Assembly (NCBI RefSeq): GCF_003382685.1
Contig: NZ_KZ859505.1
Location: 1-64,000, forward strand
Length of the DNA stretch: 64,000 nucleotides
Source of the DNA: Halorussus litoreus
Lineage (GTDB): Archaea; Halobacteriota; Halobacteria; Halobacteriales; Haladaptataceae
Direction of reading: 5' to 3'
A program made the translations under genes and the position numbers. The notes beneath the pieces are model-generated. The model made no database searches and was not told the DNA's origin. It worked only from the letters and a program-made list of their open reading frames with translations. The stretch's first letter is position 1, and each line of letters starts with the position of its first letter. This document shows, piece by piece, positions 8,232-61,664 of this stretch.

Positions 8232-9203
8232 CTACTCGCGGAGAGGTCGAACCTTAACTCCGGGGTTCTCTGCGACGTAGATCGACTGGTTGGGGTCAAC
8301 ATCCCCTTGAATCGCTAAGGAATGAATGTCGCCTGCACGCTTCTTTTTGATTCCGTACTCCTTCATCTGAGTCGTGTTTGCAGACGATGGGCTTGGGAGG
8401 ACGGGGTGTGAGAGACTCCAACTCATCGAATAGTCTTTATTCGGAATGTTATCTCCATCGTTCTCGAAAAGCGTATTGCGCAATTTGTTTTCCACTGTCA
8501 TGTCGACATAGTCGACATCTAGGACTTGTTCAGATGGGAACACAATATTGAACCGCATGAAATGTCCGGTCGTCTGTCTTGTTTTGTAACGTTTCCATTC
8601 GTGTTCTATCCCGTTATCGACAGCTCCATTCTGACTCGCCTTTTTCCAGTAAGTATGTATTTGATCCGCAGTTGTAACACCTGAGACTGAATCCGCAAAA
8701 TGGTTAATGACTGCAATGATGGATTGCACAGTTGCCGTACTCCAAGAGTACCCGTGATCTTGGCCAGTTGTCACACCGAGGCCCCAATCGGCGTTCCCGA
8801 AGTAGTTCGTGCTGACCTGACTAGGGGCGTCATGTTCAGTTATATTGACCATCTGGTCTCCTTCAAACATCGCGTATTTAGATCCGTCTCCACTTGAGCC
8901 AACCTGCTTTCTGCAATTTGAGGCGTCAGCCGACGTGAGATACACATACTGCCACTTCTCCGAACCGGGGAGCCAGACAGCGTTGTCGACCAAGTCGAGA
9001 GTCGATCCAGCCGAGGTAGTGTACTGGATTTCATGTCCAAGCTCGTTAATCTGAATTTGACTACTTTCTGCGTGATTCTTGGGCCAGTCTCCATCTCCGA
9101 CATTATCAGCTAAAGCGAACCCACTTAACCCGGTCACTCCGACCGTGGCCGCAACACCTGTCAAACTTGACTGCTTCAGGAACGCTCGTCTATCGTATGA
9201 CAT
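8232..9203 (-). CDS. Tat-exported orphan protein of unknown function
   Basis: A 323-aa protein with a clear Tat signal: DRRAFLKQS, a hydrophobic core and a likely cleavage after ALA near residue 32. The mature part is polar with many Ser/Thr/Asn and aromatic residues (WQYVYLTSADASN, YFGNADWGLGVTTG), no membrane anchor and only one obvious Cys. Family not recognised. The gene is AT-rich like its convergent partner. TATA-like TATAAGTTA (plus 9227-9235) is about 28 nt before the ATG. The 249 bp up to katG are very AT-rich and hold no ORF. Confidence 0.65.
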   Translation of the reverse strand: MSYDRRAFLKQSSLTGVAATVGVTGLSGFALADNVGDGDWPKNHAESSQIQINELGHEIQYTTSAGSTLDLVDNAVWLPGSEKWQYVYLTSADASNCRKQVGSSGDGSKYAMFEGDQMVNITEHDAPSQVSTNYFGNADWGLGVTTGQDHGYSWSTATVQSIIAVINHFADSVSGVTTADQIHTYWKKASQNGAVDNGIEHEWKRYKTRQTTGHFMRFNIVFPSEQVLDVDYVDMTVENKLRNTLFENDGDNIPNKDYSMSWSLSHPVLPSPSSANTTQMKEYGIKKKRAGDIHSLAIQGDVDPNQSIYVAENPGVKVRPLRE

Positions 9204-9452
9204 CAGTTAATAAGATAGACATAAATAACTTATAATTTTCTAAGTATAGTTTATATATTAATAACTTATGGATAATATGAAGATAAACCTGTAGACTATA
9301 GAAGTAGAGTTCTATACAGAAAAATATTTTAAATATTTAACAATCAGGACCTTCATAATGGCATGAATTCTATGCTTGTGCCTGTGCTATCAACGAATAG
9401 TGGCGCAGGCTAAGACGCGAGGTAAACCACCAAAATATACTTTTAACCGAAA

Positions 9453-11701
<2,249 letters not shown>

Positions 11702-54141: not shown

Positions 54142-54188
54142 CTGAGTAGGTTACATCGGCGCGAACGGGCGTCCTACCGCTCAAACGA

Positions 54189-54935
54189 TTACGGCGGACA
54201 GTTCTCGTTGCAGCAACTACACCCGTCGAGACACGAGGTCTCACCGATGTATCCACATCCCATATCCGGACAGCACTGGTACTTCTCCTCCCGGTAGTAC
54301 AGTGTGACGCAGATTACGCCCTCGTCGTAGTGGCAGTAGCTGTCGGCACAGACGTAGTTGATGTAGCAGTCGCTCTCCATCGTCCCGACTTCCACTGAAC
54401 CACCACTAGCGTTTAGGTACGTCGCGTCTCCGCCGTTCTTCGGTGTCACATACGAGTACGCTTCACCTGCTTCCGGTTGGACGTAAATCGCGACGTGGTG
54501 AGTCTCGGTGTGCTTCGAGACGAGGATGACGCCGGTATCTACGTCACTACCCAGTCGGGCGGTGACGCCGACTCCCTCGAAAGAGTCTCCGGGTTCCAGT
54601 TCGATCTTCCCCAAGTCCATGTTCCCGGTCGGCAGAGCGTCGAGACCTGCGTCGTTGAGGAACCCCTGTTCGACCAATTCCGTTATCAGGTCACTCGCGT
54701 TCTGTCTCAGGGCGGTTCGAACCTTCGCGGGCGTGTCGTAGTTCTTCCGCAACGACCGCCGCCGCTCTTTCGTCTCCTCGGCCTGCTTTGCAATCTCGTC
54801 CACATCGACATCACTTTTCTTCGCGGTAACGCCACCAAACATTGACAGTCCCGACGTCGTCCCGCCAACAGCGCCGATACTGCGAAGCATTGTTCGTCGC
54901 TCGATTCGCCGGTCGCCTGATTTTCCATCAGACAT
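54189..54935 (-). CDS. Tat-exported precursor with 12-cysteine C-terminal tail (candidate halocin-like peptide precursor)
   Basis: A 248-aa protein. The Tat-type signal ERRTMLRSIGAVGG gives a likely cleavage after GGVTA near residue 38. A charged middle domain (about 40-185) follows. Residues 190-246 carry 12 Cys (190, 196, 201, 209, 221, 222, 227, 235, 239, 241, 242, 246), none elsewhere. The closing segment is CLDGCSCCNENC. This layout, Tat signal plus soluble domain plus Cys-rich tail, parallels the halocin C8 precursor (283 aa, 76-aa mature peptide with 10 Cys, N-terminal part immunity), but I see no sequence match. TATA TTTAATAACC lies 28 nt upstream. Confidence 0.7.
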   Translation of the reverse strand: MSDGKSGDRRIERRTMLRSIGAVGGTTSGLSMFGGVTAKKSDVDVDEIAKQAEETKERRRSLRKNYDTPAKVRTALRQNASDLITELVEQGFLNDAGLDALPTGNMDLGKIELEPGDSFEGVGVTARLGSDVDTGVILVSKHTETHHVAIYVQPEAGEAYSYVTPKNGGDATYLNASGGSVEVGTMESDCYINYVCADSYCHYDEGVICVTLYYREEKYQCCPDMGCGYIGETSCLDGCSCCNENCPP

Positions 54936-55065
54936 GTATTATAATAGTACCATACAGGTTATTAAATTATCTAACCCATATTAAAATTATTAGATTGTAC
55001 ACATATAATAAATCTACTTATAAATGTTATTAGTGAGTTTAGTTACTTTAAGTGGAAAGCGACGG

Positions 55066-55072
55066 TTTTATA
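55066..55072 (+). promoter_or_regulatory. TATA box of the first BMP gene
   Basis: TTTTATA is centred about 31 nt before the ATG at 55100. The transcript is leaderless or has a very short leader. The stretch 54936-55060 upstream is AT-rich and without a gene. Confidence 0.55.
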
Positions 55073-55099
55073 CTACCTTGTCGGACTTCTTCGGGTAAG

Positions 55100-56254
55100 A
55101 TGTCCGAGATGGACCCACAGCGGCGGCGGCTTCTCAAGATTGGTGGCGCAGGCATCGTCGGAACCGGACTGGCCGGCTGCATGGGCGGTGGCGGCGACGA
55201 CGAGAGTACGACCGAGTCCGACGAGACGACCGAGGAGTCGGACGGCGGCGACGAGACCACCGCGTCCGACGACGGCGAGGAGACCACAATGTCCGACCCC
55301 CTGAACGTCGGGATGGTGTACGCGACCGGCGGGCTCGGCGACAACTCGTTCAACGACATGGCTCACCAGGGCGTCCAGGACGCCGAGTCCGAGTACGGCG
55401 TCACGTTCCAGAACTCCGAGCCGACCAGCCCGAGCGAGGTCGAGTCGCTCCAGCGCCGGTTCGCCCAATCGGGCGACTACGATCTGGTCTGTTGCATCGG
55501 CTACGTCCAGACAGACGCGCTGACGACCAACGCCGAGCGCTACACCGACCAGAAGTTCATGCTCGTCGACTCGGTCGTCGAGATGGACAACGTGTCGAAC
55601 TACAAGTTCAAGGAGCACCTCGGCTCGTTCCAGGTCGGCCACCTCGCGGGCCTGCTGACCTCCGAGGACTTCAGCGCGGGCGCTGGCGAGACCACCGACG
55701 ACCTCGTTGTCGGCTTCGTCGGCGGCGAGGAGGTGCCGCTCATCAAGCGCTTCGAGGCGGGCTTCAGCGCCGGCGCGAAGCACGCAAACAGTGACGTGGA
55801 GGTCCGCTCGGCGTACGCCGGCGCGTACAACGACCCCGGCACGGGCCAGTCCATCGCGAACTCGATGTACGACGACGGCGCGGACGTCATCTACCACGCG
55901 GCGGGCGGCACCGGCAACGGCGTGTTCCAGGCCGCACAGGAGCAGGGTCGCTTCGCCATCGGCGTGGACGCCGACCAGTCCAAGAGCCTGTCCGAGTACA
56001 GCGACGTCATCCTCGCCAGCATGGTCAAGCGCGTCGACGAGGCAGTCTACCGCTCCATCGAGAACGTCGTGAACGGGGAGTTCGCGAGCGGCGGCATCCA
56101 GAGCCTCGGGCTGGGCGAGGGCGGCGTCGAGGCCGTGTACGGCCAGCAGCTCGGTTCTGAGATCCCCGACGAGGTCAAGTCCGCGCTCGACACCTCCCGG
56201 GAGTCCATCATCGCGGGCGACATCGAGGTGCCGACCGACCCGAGCAACGCCTGA
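55100..56254 (+). CDS. BMP-family substrate-binding lipoprotein (nucleoside ABC transporter), copy 1
   Basis: A 384-aa protein. The Tat lipoprotein signal QRRRLLKIGGAG ends in the lipobox LAGC (Cys27). An acidic Thr/Asp/Glu-rich spacer precedes the BMP domain: NVGMVYATGGLGDNSFNDMA, LVCCIGYVQTDAL, GSFQVGHLAGLLT, HAAGGTGNGVFQAA, IGVDADQS and DVILASMVKRVD. It captures purine or pyrimidine nucleosides outside the membrane. The ATPase and permeases follow after a second copy. Alternative start ATG at 55109. Confidence 0.92.
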   Translation: MSEMDPQRRRLLKIGGAGIVGTGLAGCMGGGGDDESTTESDETTEESDGGDETTASDDGEETTMSDPLNVGMVYATGGLGDNSFNDMAHQGVQDAESEYGVTFQNSEPTSPSEVESLQRRFAQSGDYDLVCCIGYVQTDALTTNAERYTDQKFMLVDSVVEMDNVSNYKFKEHLGSFQVGHLAGLLTSEDFSAGAGETTDDLVVGFVGGEEVPLIKRFEAGFSAGAKHANSDVEVRSAYAGAYNDPGTGQSIANSMYDDGADVIYHAAGGTGNGVFQAAQEQGRFAIGVDADQSKSLSEYSDVILASMVKRVDEAVYRSIENVVNGEFASGGIQSLGLGEGGVEAVYGQQLGSEIPDEVKSALDTSRESIIAGDIEVPTDPSNA

Positions 56255-56465
56255 GGCGGCCGTTCGCGGTTCGACGGCCGGGGTAGCCACTCCGCTTCCG
56301 ACTCCGCGGCCGATTTTTCTACCGAAGCTACCATCCCGGAGTGCTACTACCGTCCGTTCCGCGGTCGTGAGCGCTCGGTTCCACGAACCGCATTCCTCGG
56401 TTCTACGGCCCCCGTTCCGGAAGCAAGGGTCGGATTCATCACGGTCGATGGTGATGTAGGGGTGT

Positions 56466-57545
56466 ATGTGGGGGAGAAACACGCGACGCGAGTTTCTGGG
56501 AGCGATGGGGACGGCCGCCGCCTTTGGCACGACCGGGTTCGTCCAGCAGGGGACCGTCAACGTCGGGATGGTGTACGCGACCGGCGGGCTCGGCGACAAC
56601 TCGTTCAACGACATGGCCCACGAAGGGGTCCAGCAGGCAGCAGAGGAGTACGACGTGGAGTTCCAGAATTCGGAGCCGAGCAGTCCGAGCGACGTGGGTT
56701 CGCTCCAGCGCCGATTCGCTCAGTCGGGGAACTACGACCTGATCTGCTGCATCGGCTTCGTCCAGCAGGACGCGCTGAGCGAGAACGCCCAGCGGTTCGG
56801 CGACCAGCGATTCATGGTCGTGGACACGGTGGTCGAGCAGCCGAACGTGGCGAGTTACCGGTTCCGCGAGCATCAGGGCTCGTTTCAGGTCGGCCACCTC
56901 GCGGGCCTGCTGACCACGATGGAGTTCAGCGCGGGCGCGGGCGAGACCAACGAGGCCCCCACGGTGGGGTTCGTCGGCGGACAGGAGGTGCCCCTCATCG
57001 CGCGATTCGAGGCGGGCTACGTGGCGGGCGTCCGGCACGCGAACCCGGACGTGGAAGTCCTGTCGGCGTACGCCGGGTCGTTCAGCGACCCCGCGCAGGG
57101 CCAGTCCATCGCAAACTCGATGTACGACAACGGTGCCGACATCATCTACCACGCGGCGGGCGGCACCGGAAACGGCGTGTTCAGGGCGGCCCAGAGCACC
57201 GGCCGGTTCGCTATCGGCGTGGACGCCGACCAGTCCCAGAGCATCCCCGAGTACAGCGACGTCATCCTCGCCAGCATGGTCAAGCGCGTCGATCAGGCGG
57301 TGTTCGAGTCCGTCGAGAGCGTGGTGAACGGGGAGTTCGCAGGCGGGTCGGTCAACGAACTCGGGCTCGAACAGAACGGGGTCGAGGCGGTGTACGGGCA
57401 GGACCTCGGTCCGGAGATCCCCGAGGATGTCAAGTCGGCGCTGGAGCAGTCCCACGAAGCCATCGTCGCCGGGGACATCGAAGTCCCGACCGACCCCGCG
57501 AACGTAGGCGAAGGCGAGGGCGCGACGACCACCACGAATCAGTAG
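56466..57545 (+). CDS. BMP-family substrate-binding protein, copy 2 (no lipobox)
   Basis: A 359-aa paralogue of the preceding gene; large blocks are identical (MVYATGGLGDNSFNDMAH, GSFQVGHLAGLLT, HAAGGTGNGVF). The signal region NTRREFLGAMGTAAAFGTTGF has a twin-arginine motif but no Cys, and the acidic spacer is missing, so this copy would be released or held another way. Recent tandem duplication with diverged signal. Ligand may be a different nucleoside. The tail GEGEGATTTTNQ is low complexity. Confidence 0.88.
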   Translation: MWGRNTRREFLGAMGTAAAFGTTGFVQQGTVNVGMVYATGGLGDNSFNDMAHEGVQQAAEEYDVEFQNSEPSSPSDVGSLQRRFAQSGNYDLICCIGFVQQDALSENAQRFGDQRFMVVDTVVEQPNVASYRFREHQGSFQVGHLAGLLTTMEFSAGAGETNEAPTVGFVGGQEVPLIARFEAGYVAGVRHANPDVEVLSAYAGSFSDPAQGQSIANSMYDNGADIIYHAAGGTGNGVFRAAQSTGRFAIGVDADQSQSIPEYSDVILASMVKRVDQAVFESVESVVNGEFAGGSVNELGLEQNGVEAVYGQDLGPEIPEDVKSALEQSHEAIVAGDIEVPTDPANVGEGEGATTTTNQ

Positions 57546-57665
57546 CGAACCAGGGGCCAAGCCGCGGCGAACGCCGGATTCCAACGCCTCGAACGATCAG
57601 GGCGTCGAACGCGTCTACGGCGTCCGACAGGTATCTCGGTTGAGAAACGTTCACCCAATCCGGGT

Positions 57666-57675
57666 CGCTTAAGCG
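57666..57675 (+). promoter_or_regulatory. TATA box of the ABC ATPase gene
   Basis: Palindromic CGCTTAAGCG is centred 30 nt before the ATG at 57701, so the ATPase-permease genes can be transcribed separately from the binding proteins. Confidence 0.5.
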
Positions 57676-57700
57676 GGCCCATCGAGAACTGCGACCAAAG

Positions 57701-59257
57701 ATGAGCGTAGCCGTCCACCTCGCGGGAATAACCAAGCGGTTCCCCGGCGTCGTCGCCAACGACGAGGTCGACCTCGAAGTCGAGGAAGGGAGCGTCCACG
57801 CCCTCCTCGGCGAGAACGGGGCGGGGAAGACGACGCTGATGAACGTGCTCTACGGACTCTACCAGCCGGACGGAGGTACCGTCCACGTCCACGGGGACTC
57901 ACGGGAGTTCTACACGCCGCGGGACGCTATCGACGCGGGGGTCGGGATGATCCACCAGCACTTCATGCTGGTGGACACGCTGACCACCGCCGAGAACATC
58001 GTCCTCGGCCACGAGCCCCGCAAGTGGGGCGGGCTGGCGATGGACCGCGCGCAGGCCGAACGCGACGTCCGTGAACTCGGCGAACGCTACGGGTTCGACG
58101 TCGACCCCGAGGCGAAGATCGAGGACGTGAGCGTCGGCGTCCAACAGCGCGTCGAGATCCTGAAGGCGCTGTACGGCGGCGCGGACGTGCTCATCCTCGA
58201 CGAGCCGACCGCGGTGCTCACACCGCAGGAGGTCGAGGACCTGTTCGGCGTGTTCGAGGAACTCGCGGCCGAGGACAAGACCATCATCTTCATCACGCAC
58301 AAGCTCGGCGAGGCGATGGACGCCGCCGACGAGATTACGGTGCTGCGCGACGGCCGGAACGTCGGCACGGTGGACGCCGCCGACACGACCCGCGAGGAGC
58401 TGGCCGAACTCATGGTCGGCCGGGAAGTGCTGCTCGAAGCCGACAAGGAACCGGCCGAGCCGGGCGACGTCGGGCTGTCGGTTTCGGACCTCCGCGTCAC
58501 CGACGACCGGGGCGTCGAGCAGGTGAGCGGCGTGAATATCGACGTCCGCGAGGGCGAGGTGTTCGGCATCGCCGGGGTAGACGGCAACGGCCAGTCCGAA
58601 CTCGTCGGAGCCATAACGGGACTCCGAGCGCCCGAGTCGGGCACGGTCAGGGTCGACGGCCGCGACGTGACCGACCTTTCGCGGCGCGAGCGCATCGAGA
58701 ACGGGATGGCCTACGTTCCGGAGGACCGCCAGAAGCGCGGGCTCGTGATGGACTTCGACCTCGTGGAGAACGGCCTGCTGGGGAGCCAACACACCGCTCC
58801 GTTCTCGGACGGCGGCCGGATCGACTGGGCGGAGAGCCGCGAGCACGCCCGGGGAGTCATCGAGGAGTACGACGTGCGCCCGAACGACCCCGACGCGGAA
58901 GCCGAGTCGCTGTCGGGGGGCAACCAACAGAAGTTCGTCGTCGGCCGGGAGTTCGCCCGCGACCCGGAGGTCGTGGTCGCATCCCATCCGACCCGCGGGG
59001 TCGACGTGGGGAGCATCGAGTTCATCCACGAGCGCATCCTCGACCTCCGTCGGGCGGGCAAGACCGTCCTGCTGGTCTCCTCGAAGCTTGACGAGGTCCA
59101 GCAGCTCTCGGACCGACTCGGGGTGATGTACGAGGGCGAGGTCGTGGACGTGGTCGACCCCGACCGCGTGACCGAGGAGGAACTCGGCCTGTTGATGGCG
59201 GGCCAGATTCCCGAGGACGCGCCCAGCATCGCCGACGCAGTGGGAGGTGAGCCGTGA
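57701..59257 (+). CDS. Nucleoside ABC transporter ATPase (two NBDs)
   Basis: A 518-aa protein with duplicated nucleotide-binding domains as in sugar and nucleoside importers. NBD1: Walker A GENGAGKTTLMN, Q-loop MIHQHFML, signature VGVQQRVEILKAL, Walker B VLILDEPTAVLTP. NBD2: degenerate Walker A GVDGNGQSEL, signature LSGGNQQKFVVGREFA, and a B region reading VVVASHPTRGVDVGS, so NBD2 is likely a weak hydrolase. Overlaps the permease gene by 4 bp. Confidence 0.94.
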   Translation: MSVAVHLAGITKRFPGVVANDEVDLEVEEGSVHALLGENGAGKTTLMNVLYGLYQPDGGTVHVHGDSREFYTPRDAIDAGVGMIHQHFMLVDTLTTAENIVLGHEPRKWGGLAMDRAQAERDVRELGERYGFDVDPEAKIEDVSVGVQQRVEILKALYGGADVLILDEPTAVLTPQEVEDLFGVFEELAAEDKTIIFITHKLGEAMDAADEITVLRDGRNVGTVDAADTTREELAELMVGREVLLEADKEPAEPGDVGLSVSDLRVTDDRGVEQVSGVNIDVREGEVFGIAGVDGNGQSELVGAITGLRAPESGTVRVDGRDVTDLSRRERIENGMAYVPEDRQKRGLVMDFDLVENGLLGSQHTAPFSDGGRIDWAESREHARGVIEEYDVRPNDPDAEAESLSGGNQQKFVVGREFARDPEVVVASHPTRGVDVGSIEFIHERILDLRRAGKTVLLVSSKLDEVQQLSDRLGVMYEGEVVDVVDPDRVTEEELGLLMAGQIPEDAPSIADAVGGEP

Positions 59258-60624
59258 GCGACCCCGACGACGCCCCGGGGTCGGACGACGGCGGGAATCC
59301 TGCCCCCGACACCGAGGGGGACGATTCGGACCCAGACTCGAATCCCGATCCGGACGACTCGTGGCAGGGTCGGGCCGACCGCGCGCTCGGGCGGCTCGTG
59401 GACGCCTCGGCGGTCGAGCGCATCCTCATCAGCGTCGCGGCGCTCGTGCTATCGGTGGTCGTCGGTGCCGTGGTCATCCTCGTCTCGGGGTGGGCGGCGA
59501 CCTGCCAGTCGGCGTTCTTCTCCGCGCCGGGGCTGGGGTCGTTCTGCTACGACCCCGTGTCTGTCTACCGGACGATGGCAGCCGGGGCGGTCTGGCCGCC
59601 GTACAACCTCGCCATCTCGCTCAAGGAGACGACGCTGTTGCTGTTCACCGGCCTGTCGGTCGCGGTCGCGTTCCGCGCCGGGATGTTCAACATCGGGACG
59701 CAGGGCCAGCTGGTCCTGGGCGCGCTCGGCACCGCGCTGGCGGTCGTCTGGGCCGCCCCGTTCGTCCCCGCCGGGATCGTGGGCGCGCTCGTCCTCGTCC
59801 CGCTCGGCCTGCTCGCAGGCGCGGTCGTCGGCGGCGCGTGGGGTGCGATTCCGGGCGCGCTCAAGGCGTACGCCGACGCGAACGAGGTCATCACGACCAT
59901 CATGCTCAACTTCGTGGCGACGGGGATCGCGTTCACGCTCGTCGCCGAGGTGTTCAAGGACCCCGAGAGCCAGACGGTCCAGACTCGCTCGATTCCGGAG
60001 TTCGCCCAGCTGAACCCGGTGTACTTCGACAGCACGGTGTTCTCGCTGTACGCGCTGTTCGGCGGGCTCGCGATGGCCGGGATCATCTACTGGCTGCTCA
60101 ACGGCACCGCGTTCGGCTACGACCTCCGGACCAGCGGGCTCCAGCCCGAGGCCGCCGAGTACGGCGGCGTCGACTCGAAGCGAACGATGGTGTCGAGCAT
60201 GGGGCTGTCGGGCGCGCTCGGCGGCATCGGCGGCGCGGTGTACGTGCTGATGGTCGCGAGTCGCTGGCGAACCGGCATCCCGTCGCTTGGCTTCGACGGC
60301 ATCACCGTCTCCATTCTCGCGGGCAACAATCCGCTGGGCGTGATTCCGGCCGCGCTGCTGTTCGGCGCGCTCAAGACGGGAAGCCTCGCCATCGAGTTCC
60401 AGCTGTCGGTCCCGAACCAGCTGGTCGGGGTCCTCCGCGGGCTCATCATCCTGTTCGTCGCCATGCCGGAGTTCTTCCGGATGGTCGGCAGACGGTTCCG
60501 CTTCCGCGAGGACCGGCCGGTCGCCACCGACGGCGGGGGTGGGTCTTCCGCCGATGGCGTGAGCGGGTCCGCCACCGATGGCCCGAGTGGGACGATCGAC
60601 AACGAAGGGGGTGACCGCCAGTGA
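59254..60624 (+). CDS. Nucleoside ABC transporter permease 1
   Basis: A 456-aa member of the BPD_transp_2 family. The first 50 residues are an acidic cytosolic extension, then about nine helices. The family-specific MFNIGTQGQLVLGALG and GAIPGALKAYADANEVITTIMLNFVA are present, along with the coupling loop GFDGITVSILAGNNPLGVIPAALLFG. The acidic tail is rich in Asp/Gly/Ser. GTG start overlaps the ATPase stop; its end overlaps the second permease. Confidence 0.93.
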   Translation: MSDPDDAPGSDDGGNPAPDTEGDDSDPDSNPDPDDSWQGRADRALGRLVDASAVERILISVAALVLSVVVGAVVILVSGWAATCQSAFFSAPGLGSFCYDPVSVYRTMAAGAVWPPYNLAISLKETTLLLFTGLSVAVAFRAGMFNIGTQGQLVLGALGTALAVVWAAPFVPAGIVGALVLVPLGLLAGAVVGGAWGAIPGALKAYADANEVITTIMLNFVATGIAFTLVAEVFKDPESQTVQTRSIPEFAQLNPVYFDSTVFSLYALFGGLAMAGIIYWLLNGTAFGYDLRTSGLQPEAAEYGGVDSKRTMVSSMGLSGALGGIGGAVYVLMVASRWRTGIPSLGFDGITVSILAGNNPLGVIPAALLFGALKTGSLAIEFQLSVPNQLVGVLRGLIILFVAMPEFFRMVGRRFRFREDRPVATDGGGGSSADGVSGSATDGPSGTIDNEGGDRQ

Positions 60625-61664
60625 GCATCGCCGACTCCCGCCGAGGGCGGTGGATAGCGGCGCTCCTCGTGCTCCTCGGAATCGTGGTCGCGCTCGAGCT
60701 GTTCGCCGGGGTCCTCGGCGTCCTTGTCGACATCGTCGACGCCAACTACCTCCGGGCGGTGCTGCGGCTCACGGTGCCCATCGCGTTCGCGGCGCTCGGC
60801 GGCATCTTCGCCGAGAAGAGCGGCGTCATCAACATCGGCCTCGAAGGGCTGCTCATCATCTCGGCGTTCACGTCCATCGCGGTGGCGGGCCTCCTCGGCG
60901 GCGGCGACGCCACGCAGGCCGAACTCTGGATCGGCTTCGGCTCGGCGGTGCTGGCGAGCGTGCTGTTCGCGCTGCTGTTCGCGGTGGTCTGCATCGAGTT
61001 CAAGGCCGACCAGATCATCGCCGGCCTCGCGGTGTGGCTCATCGCGCTCGGGCTCGCGCCGTTCGCCAGCAAGGTCATCTGGGGACAGGTCAACAGCCCG
61101 CCAATCGCCACGCTGAACAACTGGACGCTCCGGATTCCGACGACGGACGTGGTGCTGTTCGACGCGAGCCCGCCGGTGTTCATGATGTTGATTTCGGTGC
61201 CGGTTGCGTGGTACGCGCTCAACCGCACCGCGTTCGGCCGGTGGATCGAAGCCAGCGGGGAGAACCCGAAGGCGCTCGACACCGTGGGCGTCGACGTGCG
61301 GAAGGTCCGCTACACGGGCGTCCTGCTGTCGGGCTTCTTCTCGGGGCTCGGCGGTGCCGGCCTCGCGCTCGGCCGCGTCGGCCAGTTCATCGGCGGCGGA
61401 ACGACGATGGTGAACGGACGCGGCTGGATCGGCATCACCGCGTACCTGTTCGGCAACTACAACCCGCTCGGCGCGTTCGGCGCGTCGTTCCTGTTCGCGA
61501 GCCTCGACGCGCTTCAGATCCGGCTCCAGCAGCTGGGCTACAACGTCCCGAGCGAACTCATCGGCATCATCCCCTACGTGACCGTGGTCGTGGTGCTGGC
61601 GTTCGTCGGCCGGACCCGGCTTCCCTCCGCGGCAGGAGACCACTACGAGTCCGGCGAGGAGTAA
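60621..61664 (+). CDS. Nucleoside ABC transporter permease 2
   Basis: A 347-aa BPD_transp_2 protein with about nine helices. LGGIFAEKSGVINIGLEGLLIISAF and VCIEFKADQIIAGLAVWLIALGLAPF are the paired motifs of this half. The ENPKALDTVGVDVRKVRYTGVLLSGFFSGLGGAGLALG coupling region follows. GTG start overlapping permease 1. Last gene of the transporter block; the family A left arm begins 86 bp after its stop. Confidence 0.93.
   Translation: MSIADSRRGRWIAALLVLLGIVVALELFAGVLGVLVDIVDANYLRAVLRLTVPIAFAALGGIFAEKSGVINIGLEGLLIISAFTSIAVAGLLGGGDATQAELWIGFGSAVLASVLFALLFAVVCIEFKADQIIAGLAVWLIALGLAPFASKVIWGQVNSPPIATLNNWTLRIPTTDVVLFDASPPVFMMLISVPVAWYALNRTAFGRWIEASGENPKALDTVGVDVRKVRYTGVLLSGFFSGLGGAGLALGRVGQFIGGGTTMVNGRGWIGITAYLFGNYNPLGAFGASFLFASLDALQIRLQQLGYNVPSELIGIIPYVTVVVVLAFVGRTRLPSAAGDHYESGEE

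Follow-up and report, generated by a model that had tools for sequence, protein, structure and literature searches.

The gene at 54189-54935 of the window (the whole stretch of Halorussus litoreus DNA that was analysed, 64,000 nucleotides in length) is a member of an apparently undescribed haloarchaeal family. Judged from their sequences, the proteins of this family combine a Tat signal with a conserved helix/beta domain and end in a hypervariable tail rich in Cys, and the family is fast-diversifying. Family membership, the Tat motif and the pairing of the tail cysteines are well supported for the window gene. The small exported protein, with its disulfide-knotted tail, is most likely a weapon or a signal between cells, and from the sequence features we put the chance that the window gene encodes the precursor of a secreted antagonistic peptide at about even. 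The family, its even-Cys rule, the accessory insertion and a prenyltransferase-linked subgroup all go beyond an earlier reading of this DNA from its letters (the sequence-only reading), which had singled the gene out as a candidate halocin-like precursor.

A Tat-type precursor with twelve cysteines in its tail

The window gene and the features assigned to it are listed below.

54189-54935, minus strand: gene for a 248-aa precursor (ORF and translation; ATG start; member of the haloarchaeal profile family)
54822-54935, minus strand: Tat-type signal, residues 1-38, with the motif ERRTMLR (sequence; RR motif and low-charge stretch in 74/81 members)
54387-54821, minus strand: Cys-free middle domain, residues 39-183, with a conserved VQPExxxxY motif (AlphaFold2; family alignments)
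54189-54368, minus strand: Cys-rich tail, residues 190-248, with 12 Cys (sequence; even Cys count of the family; low-confidence predicted strands)
54959-54966, minus strand: TATA-like TTTAATAA, at -31 to -24 from the ATG of the predicted leaderless start (sequence and family-wide upstream profile)
54142-55050, no strand: region found in this genome only, between a phosphoglucomutase-type gene and a BMP-type lipoprotein gene (gap comparison)

The translation of 248 aa bears out the layout described in the sequence-only reading. The middle domain is free of Cys, and all 12 Cys (residues 190, 196, 201, 209, 221, 222, 227, 235, 239, 241, 242 and 246, a 57-residue span) fall within the last 59 residues, for which p is ~3e-8 if Cys are uniformly placed. 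Both CC pairs (221-222, 241-242) lie where that reading had put them, and the CSCC it had noted is at 239-242. The Tat-type signal it had called is also present, with ERRTMLR preceding a weakly hydrophobic stretch, and an RR motif of like kind recurs in most relatives. The tail ends in NCPP, without an acceptor Trp. Pfam and NCBIfam searches with the window protein returned no significant match, and neither a PDB family nor a metal-binding family was matched.

Structure prediction, which had been proposed as a check, was informative for one part and not for the other. AlphaFold2 gave a middle domain of three helices followed by four to five strands, mostly at pLDDT 92-97, and a tail of three strands with low confidence (pLDDT 42-69). 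A fold search of PDB and viral libraries yielded nothing significant (best E 0.3 and 0.09). A laterosporulin fold match at E 2.8 was discarded as noise, as were weak scorpion-toxin matches in a PDB sequence search, which mirror Cys spacing only.

An accessory gene, missing from the congeners examined

In the window genome, the phosphoglucomutase-type and BMP lipoprotein genes are separated by 962 bp. The same gene pair is adjacent in 13 congeneric genomes, with a gap of ~90-160 bp and no gene inside (three of the 13 gaps were taken from gene coordinates; the short-query match there was a paralogue). This comparison of sequences marks the window gene as an accessory insertion of Halorussus litoreus that the 13 congeners lack. 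Beyond it, at window positions 55052-61664, lie a tandem pair of BMP-type lipoprotein genes and, after them, genes for an ABC ATPase and two permeases.

The GC content is 57.6% in the gene, 28% in the 165 bp upstream and 66.7% (rounded, 67%) in the window. Upstream of 68 family members, AT content reaches its maximum at -35 to -26 from the start, and TATA-like hexamers were found in 33/68 at -38 to -24 compared with 9/68 at -20 to -6. The AT peak and the placement of the TATA-like hexamers fit a leaderless haloarchaeal promoter. The suggestion that the gene has its own leaderless promoter in an AT-rich context agrees with the low upstream GC, the spacing of TTTAATAA and the 68-member profile. 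The lowest-GC stretch of the window is at ~8600-9550 (~44% GC over 747 bp).

Extent of the family

Searched with the single sequence, 391 Halobacteria-class genomes gave relatives at ~23-36% identity. The profile search over haloarchaea called for by the sequence-only reading delimited the family: a profile of 57 rows with the Tat region removed matched 45/391 Halobacteria-class genomes and 21/86 genera at a threshold of E<=1e-6. A count of 271 genomes from a first profile that included the Tat signal was rejected as inflated, unrelated Tat proteins having been drawn in. Common to members are the RR Tat motif (74/81), a VxPExxxxYAxV-like motif in the middle domain and the Cys-rich tail. The window genome carries at least four copies (contigs C5, C22, C23 and C32), and several other genomes carry at least 3-6. 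A scan of named genomes found relatives in Halorussus aquaticus, Natrinema gari, Halovivax asiaticus and a Halobacteriales MAG; none were found in plasmid records or viral contigs. In the papers searched we found no earlier description of the family; a 2019 mBio survey of archaeal antimicrobial peptides (Makarova et al.), which lay outside them, may mention it. In one genus, L187-L190 form a divergent branch in which the middle domain is present, the Tat motif is absent and tail Cys are few.

Tail cysteines occur in even numbers

The number of tail Cys was even in 76/77 core members, over a range of 4-22 Cys (p ~1e-21, a value calculated on related sequences that are not independent). In the control of 89 neighbouring proteins that have five or more Cys, 39 had an even number. 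Four counts were odd at first. Three were due to Cys outside the tail, and in the sole odd member kept, L211, the delimited tail includes one Cys ahead of the usual first tail Cys. The tails are mostly very unlike one another, and even parity therefore goes beyond what common descent alone would give. Since Cys have been gained and lost in pairs, as disulfides require, the sequences indicate that the tail Cys are almost certainly joined as disulfides. This even-Cys parity is the strongest single result of the analysis.

A constant middle domain carries a changing tail

In 23 pairs with >40% middle-domain identity, mean identity was 55% in the middle domain compared with 37% at the non-Cys positions of the tail (Wilcoxon p=6e-4, for pairs that are not fully independent). 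Tandem or paired family copies were observed at L084 (three copies), L085, L086 and L087, and tandem paralogues had kept the middle domain and replaced the tail (61% vs 11% identity at L085, 62% vs 21% at L087). Both parts were kept in the likely orthologues L213 and L202 (middle 78%, tail 84%). No cleavage motif was conserved in the family alignment, and conservation was weak just ahead of the first tail Cys.

Neighbours of family members

Most members have no recurring partner, and five partner types recur beside members in unrelated genomes. An ABC ATPase and ABC-2 permease pair was found at six loci; the nearest named models of these pairs, both below cut-off, are the daunorubicin resistance protein DrrA and a lantibiotic protection ABC. 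The protein ZRP (EYTGxNRCxxCT... / ESCC...) contains a CxxC and has two probable membrane helices as well as a Cys motif at its C-terminus. Its gene follows family genes by 4-15 bp at L193 and L186 and a halocin C8-type gene by 4 bp at L229, and it is near further genes of the latter type at L251 and L248. ZRP is present in one or more copies in 267/292 genomes and is so common that its adjacency is an enrichment rather than a proof; its use as a halocin-specific marker was ruled out. In G073:C6, a stretch of ~7 kb at ~101800-109200 (L183/L243) brings together a halocin C8-type gene, ZRP, an ABC-2 pair and a member of the family.

HExxH metalloprotease-like genes related to Hvo_1808 adjoin members at four loci, and their products are possible candidates for processing proteases. 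PQQ-propeller/protein-kinase genes stand beside members at four loci, including that of the window genome's own paralogue. PQQ beta-propeller and kinase-domain proteins are encoded at L103 (6859-8976) and at L092 (2860-7865), where two copies flank one member. None of these partners (ABC-2, ZRP, HExxH protease, PQQ/kinase or prenyltransferase) adjoins the window gene itself.

A subgroup with a terminal Trp and a prenyltransferase-like enzyme

An isoprenoid-synthase-like gene adjoins family members at seven loci (L104, L105, L115, L117, L084, L201 and L203). In the seven encoded proteins the first of two Asp-rich motifs reads DDxxD, and the second, [DE]QxxxDxxQ, is degenerate in 7/7; the protein gives a nonaprenyl diphosphate synthase match at E=5e-7. 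The gene is rare (8/292 genomes). All six high-scoring copies from the search of 292 genomes, together with a seventh in a genome outside that search, adjoin a family gene. Three remoter homologues have no family gene beside them. A Trp that follows the last Cys was found in 11/13 members in enzyme-bearing genomes and in 0/64 elsewhere (Fisher p=1e-11, with the Trp criterion noticed in the same data before it was tested on them). The 11 comprise 9/9 members with the enzyme adjacent and two more in the same genomes.

Trp is the target of every trans-IDS-like peptide prenyltransferase characterised so far, and for PalQ it must be terminal (PMC13290415). As with ComX/ComQ and PalQ (PMC13290415), the subgroup has an isoprenoid-synthase-fold protein encoded next to the gene for a Trp-ending secreted peptide, and its tails end in Trp, the C-terminal residue on which PalQ acts. 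Unlike in ComX/ComQ, the substrate would be a Tat-exported disulfide-rich precursor, and no ComP/ComA was seen. The link between Trp and enzyme, together with the use of Trp by the known trans-IDS-like enzymes (PMC13290415), gives strong grounds, by analogy, to predict that a ComQ-like enzyme dedicated to the task prenylates the C-terminal Trp of this subgroup. If true, this would mean prenylated ribosomal peptides in Archaea; the terminal Trp and the prenyltransferase-like gene make a specific chemical prediction for this domain. Only tentatively, and at less than even chances, do we propose that Archaea have a large, hitherto undescribed superfamily of Tat-exported disulfide-knot peptides in which the prodomain is constant and the tails are hypervariable, one branch being Trp-prenylated at the C-terminus in the manner of ComQ/PalQ. 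The window gene lies outside the subgroup: no ComQ-like enzyme was found in its genome, and its tail lacks the terminal Trp. The data on the Trp branch say nothing direct about it, except that family products are probably handled as peptides.

Comparison with halocin C8

Halocin C8 is exported by the Tat pathway, and HalI and the 76-aa peptide both derive from one precursor (PMC11509114). The sequence-only reading had proposed a halocin-like plan for the window gene, and this plan proved to be family-wide: a Tat signal, a folded N-terminal domain and a Cys-rich C-terminal module, which in the halocin C8 precursor (ProC8) likewise has an even number of Cys. Both families are accessory and multi-copy in haloarchaea, and ZRP adjoins some members of each. 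In both precursors, predicted helices and then a beta-sheet lie ahead of the tail; from its own family alignment, the halocin C8 precursor was predicted to have two helices, five strands and then a mainly helical Cys-rich tail. This like order in the predicted structures is only suggestive.

The tails themselves differ. That of halocin C8 has 10 invariant Cys and is mainly helical and hydrophobic, whereas those of this family have 4-22 Cys and are hydrophilic and strand-forming. Mature halocin C8 has ten Cys in ~76 aa; the window tail has 12 over 57 residues, in another spacing, and is acidic rather than hydrophobic. Homology is undetectable outside the Tat signal. In hhalign comparisons with C8 precursors, a probability of 96.5% was reached only if the Tat region was included; without the Tat signal it was 3.6-5.2%, so that homology of the middle domain to HalI is unsupported. 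TIGR04449 (halocin_C8_dom) found no match in the window protein, the window genome or 57 relatives, and the earlier remark that the protein has no sequence identity with halocin C8 stands. Membership in the halocin C8 family was rejected, as the TIGR04449 match, the HalI homology and the ten-Cys pattern were all absent. The reading that the window gene works like halocin C8 is supported, and its family is an independent one.

Proposed function and alternatives

To our knowledge, sequences are available for very few archaeal peptide antibiotics. In the proposed mechanism, the Tat pathway would export the precursor, and outside the cell the tail would fold into a compact disulfide-knotted module. 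The middle domain (~145 residues) would be a prodomain that aids folding and perhaps gives self-protection, as HalI does for halocin C8. A protease would cut the poorly ordered linker at ~residues 183-189 to release a ~6.7 kDa peptide, which would act on competing haloarchaea, different tails having different specificities. We infer tail cleavage, immunity by the middle domain and killing by the peptide. A secreted peptide is the best fit because of the halocin-like plan, the variable tails, the accessory distribution and the exporter neighbours. Such a family would give a model for one prodomain carrying many toxins or signals, and its presence in ~1/9 of haloarchaeal genomes (by profile), with dozens of different knotted tails, would provide many testable candidates.

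Many of these observations are also compatible with an uncleaved recognition module or with a pheromone. The gene could encode an uncleaved cell-surface or secreted binding protein whose tail is a variable module for adhesion, mating or self/non-self recognition. Tat-exported surface proteins are frequent in haloarchaea, a constant domain with a variable tail suits recognition, no processing motif is conserved, and Hvo_1808-type surface-protein genes are among the neighbours. However, the protein has neither an anchoring segment nor a lipobox, its knotted tail is short with a flexible linker ahead, and in the subgroup the tail-end Trp and prenyltransferase-like gene suggest a peptide-like product. 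We consider this function unlikely. A secreted pheromone analogous to ComX, with the tails as signal types and the membrane or kinase neighbours as receptors, is a more doubtful proposal. The ComQ-like enzyme and terminal Trp of the subgroup would suit it, as would the PQQ-propeller/protein-kinase genes, but kinase neighbours are few, tails with 6-22 Cys are unlike ComX, and the window gene is without the Trp and its genome without the enzyme.

The sequence-only reading had offered a disulfide-rich or an extracellular metal domain; family-level evidence favours a disulfide-rich secreted peptide over metal binding. A metal-binding or redox-active thiol domain would account for the dense Cys and the CxC and CC motifs. 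Yet the even counts step by two (6, 8, 10, 12, 14, 16, 20, 22) rather than by fours, and 6, 10 or 14 Cys are not expected from metal sites of 3 or 4 Cys or from free thiols. The extracellular site is also oxidising and no metal-binding family was matched, and we regard such a domain as very improbable.

Returning to a secreted, disulfide-knotted peptide, the family shares with haloarchaeal lanthipeptides (PMC10105419) the character of secreted archaeal peptides containing Cys, and differs from them in lacking both a linked LanM and the LanA leader motif. We give next to no weight to a LanM-modified lanthipeptide precursor: the window genome does encode two LANC-domain, LanM-sized proteins, but both are on other contigs with no family gene near them, no homologue was found in any family neighbourhood, the LanA leader motif reported for haloarchaea is missing from all family members, and lanthionine would not predict even Cys parity. 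These two proteins (G000:C15:44154-45203 and G000:C16:74882-75964) are, by their LANC domain and LanM size, probable lanthipeptide synthetases.
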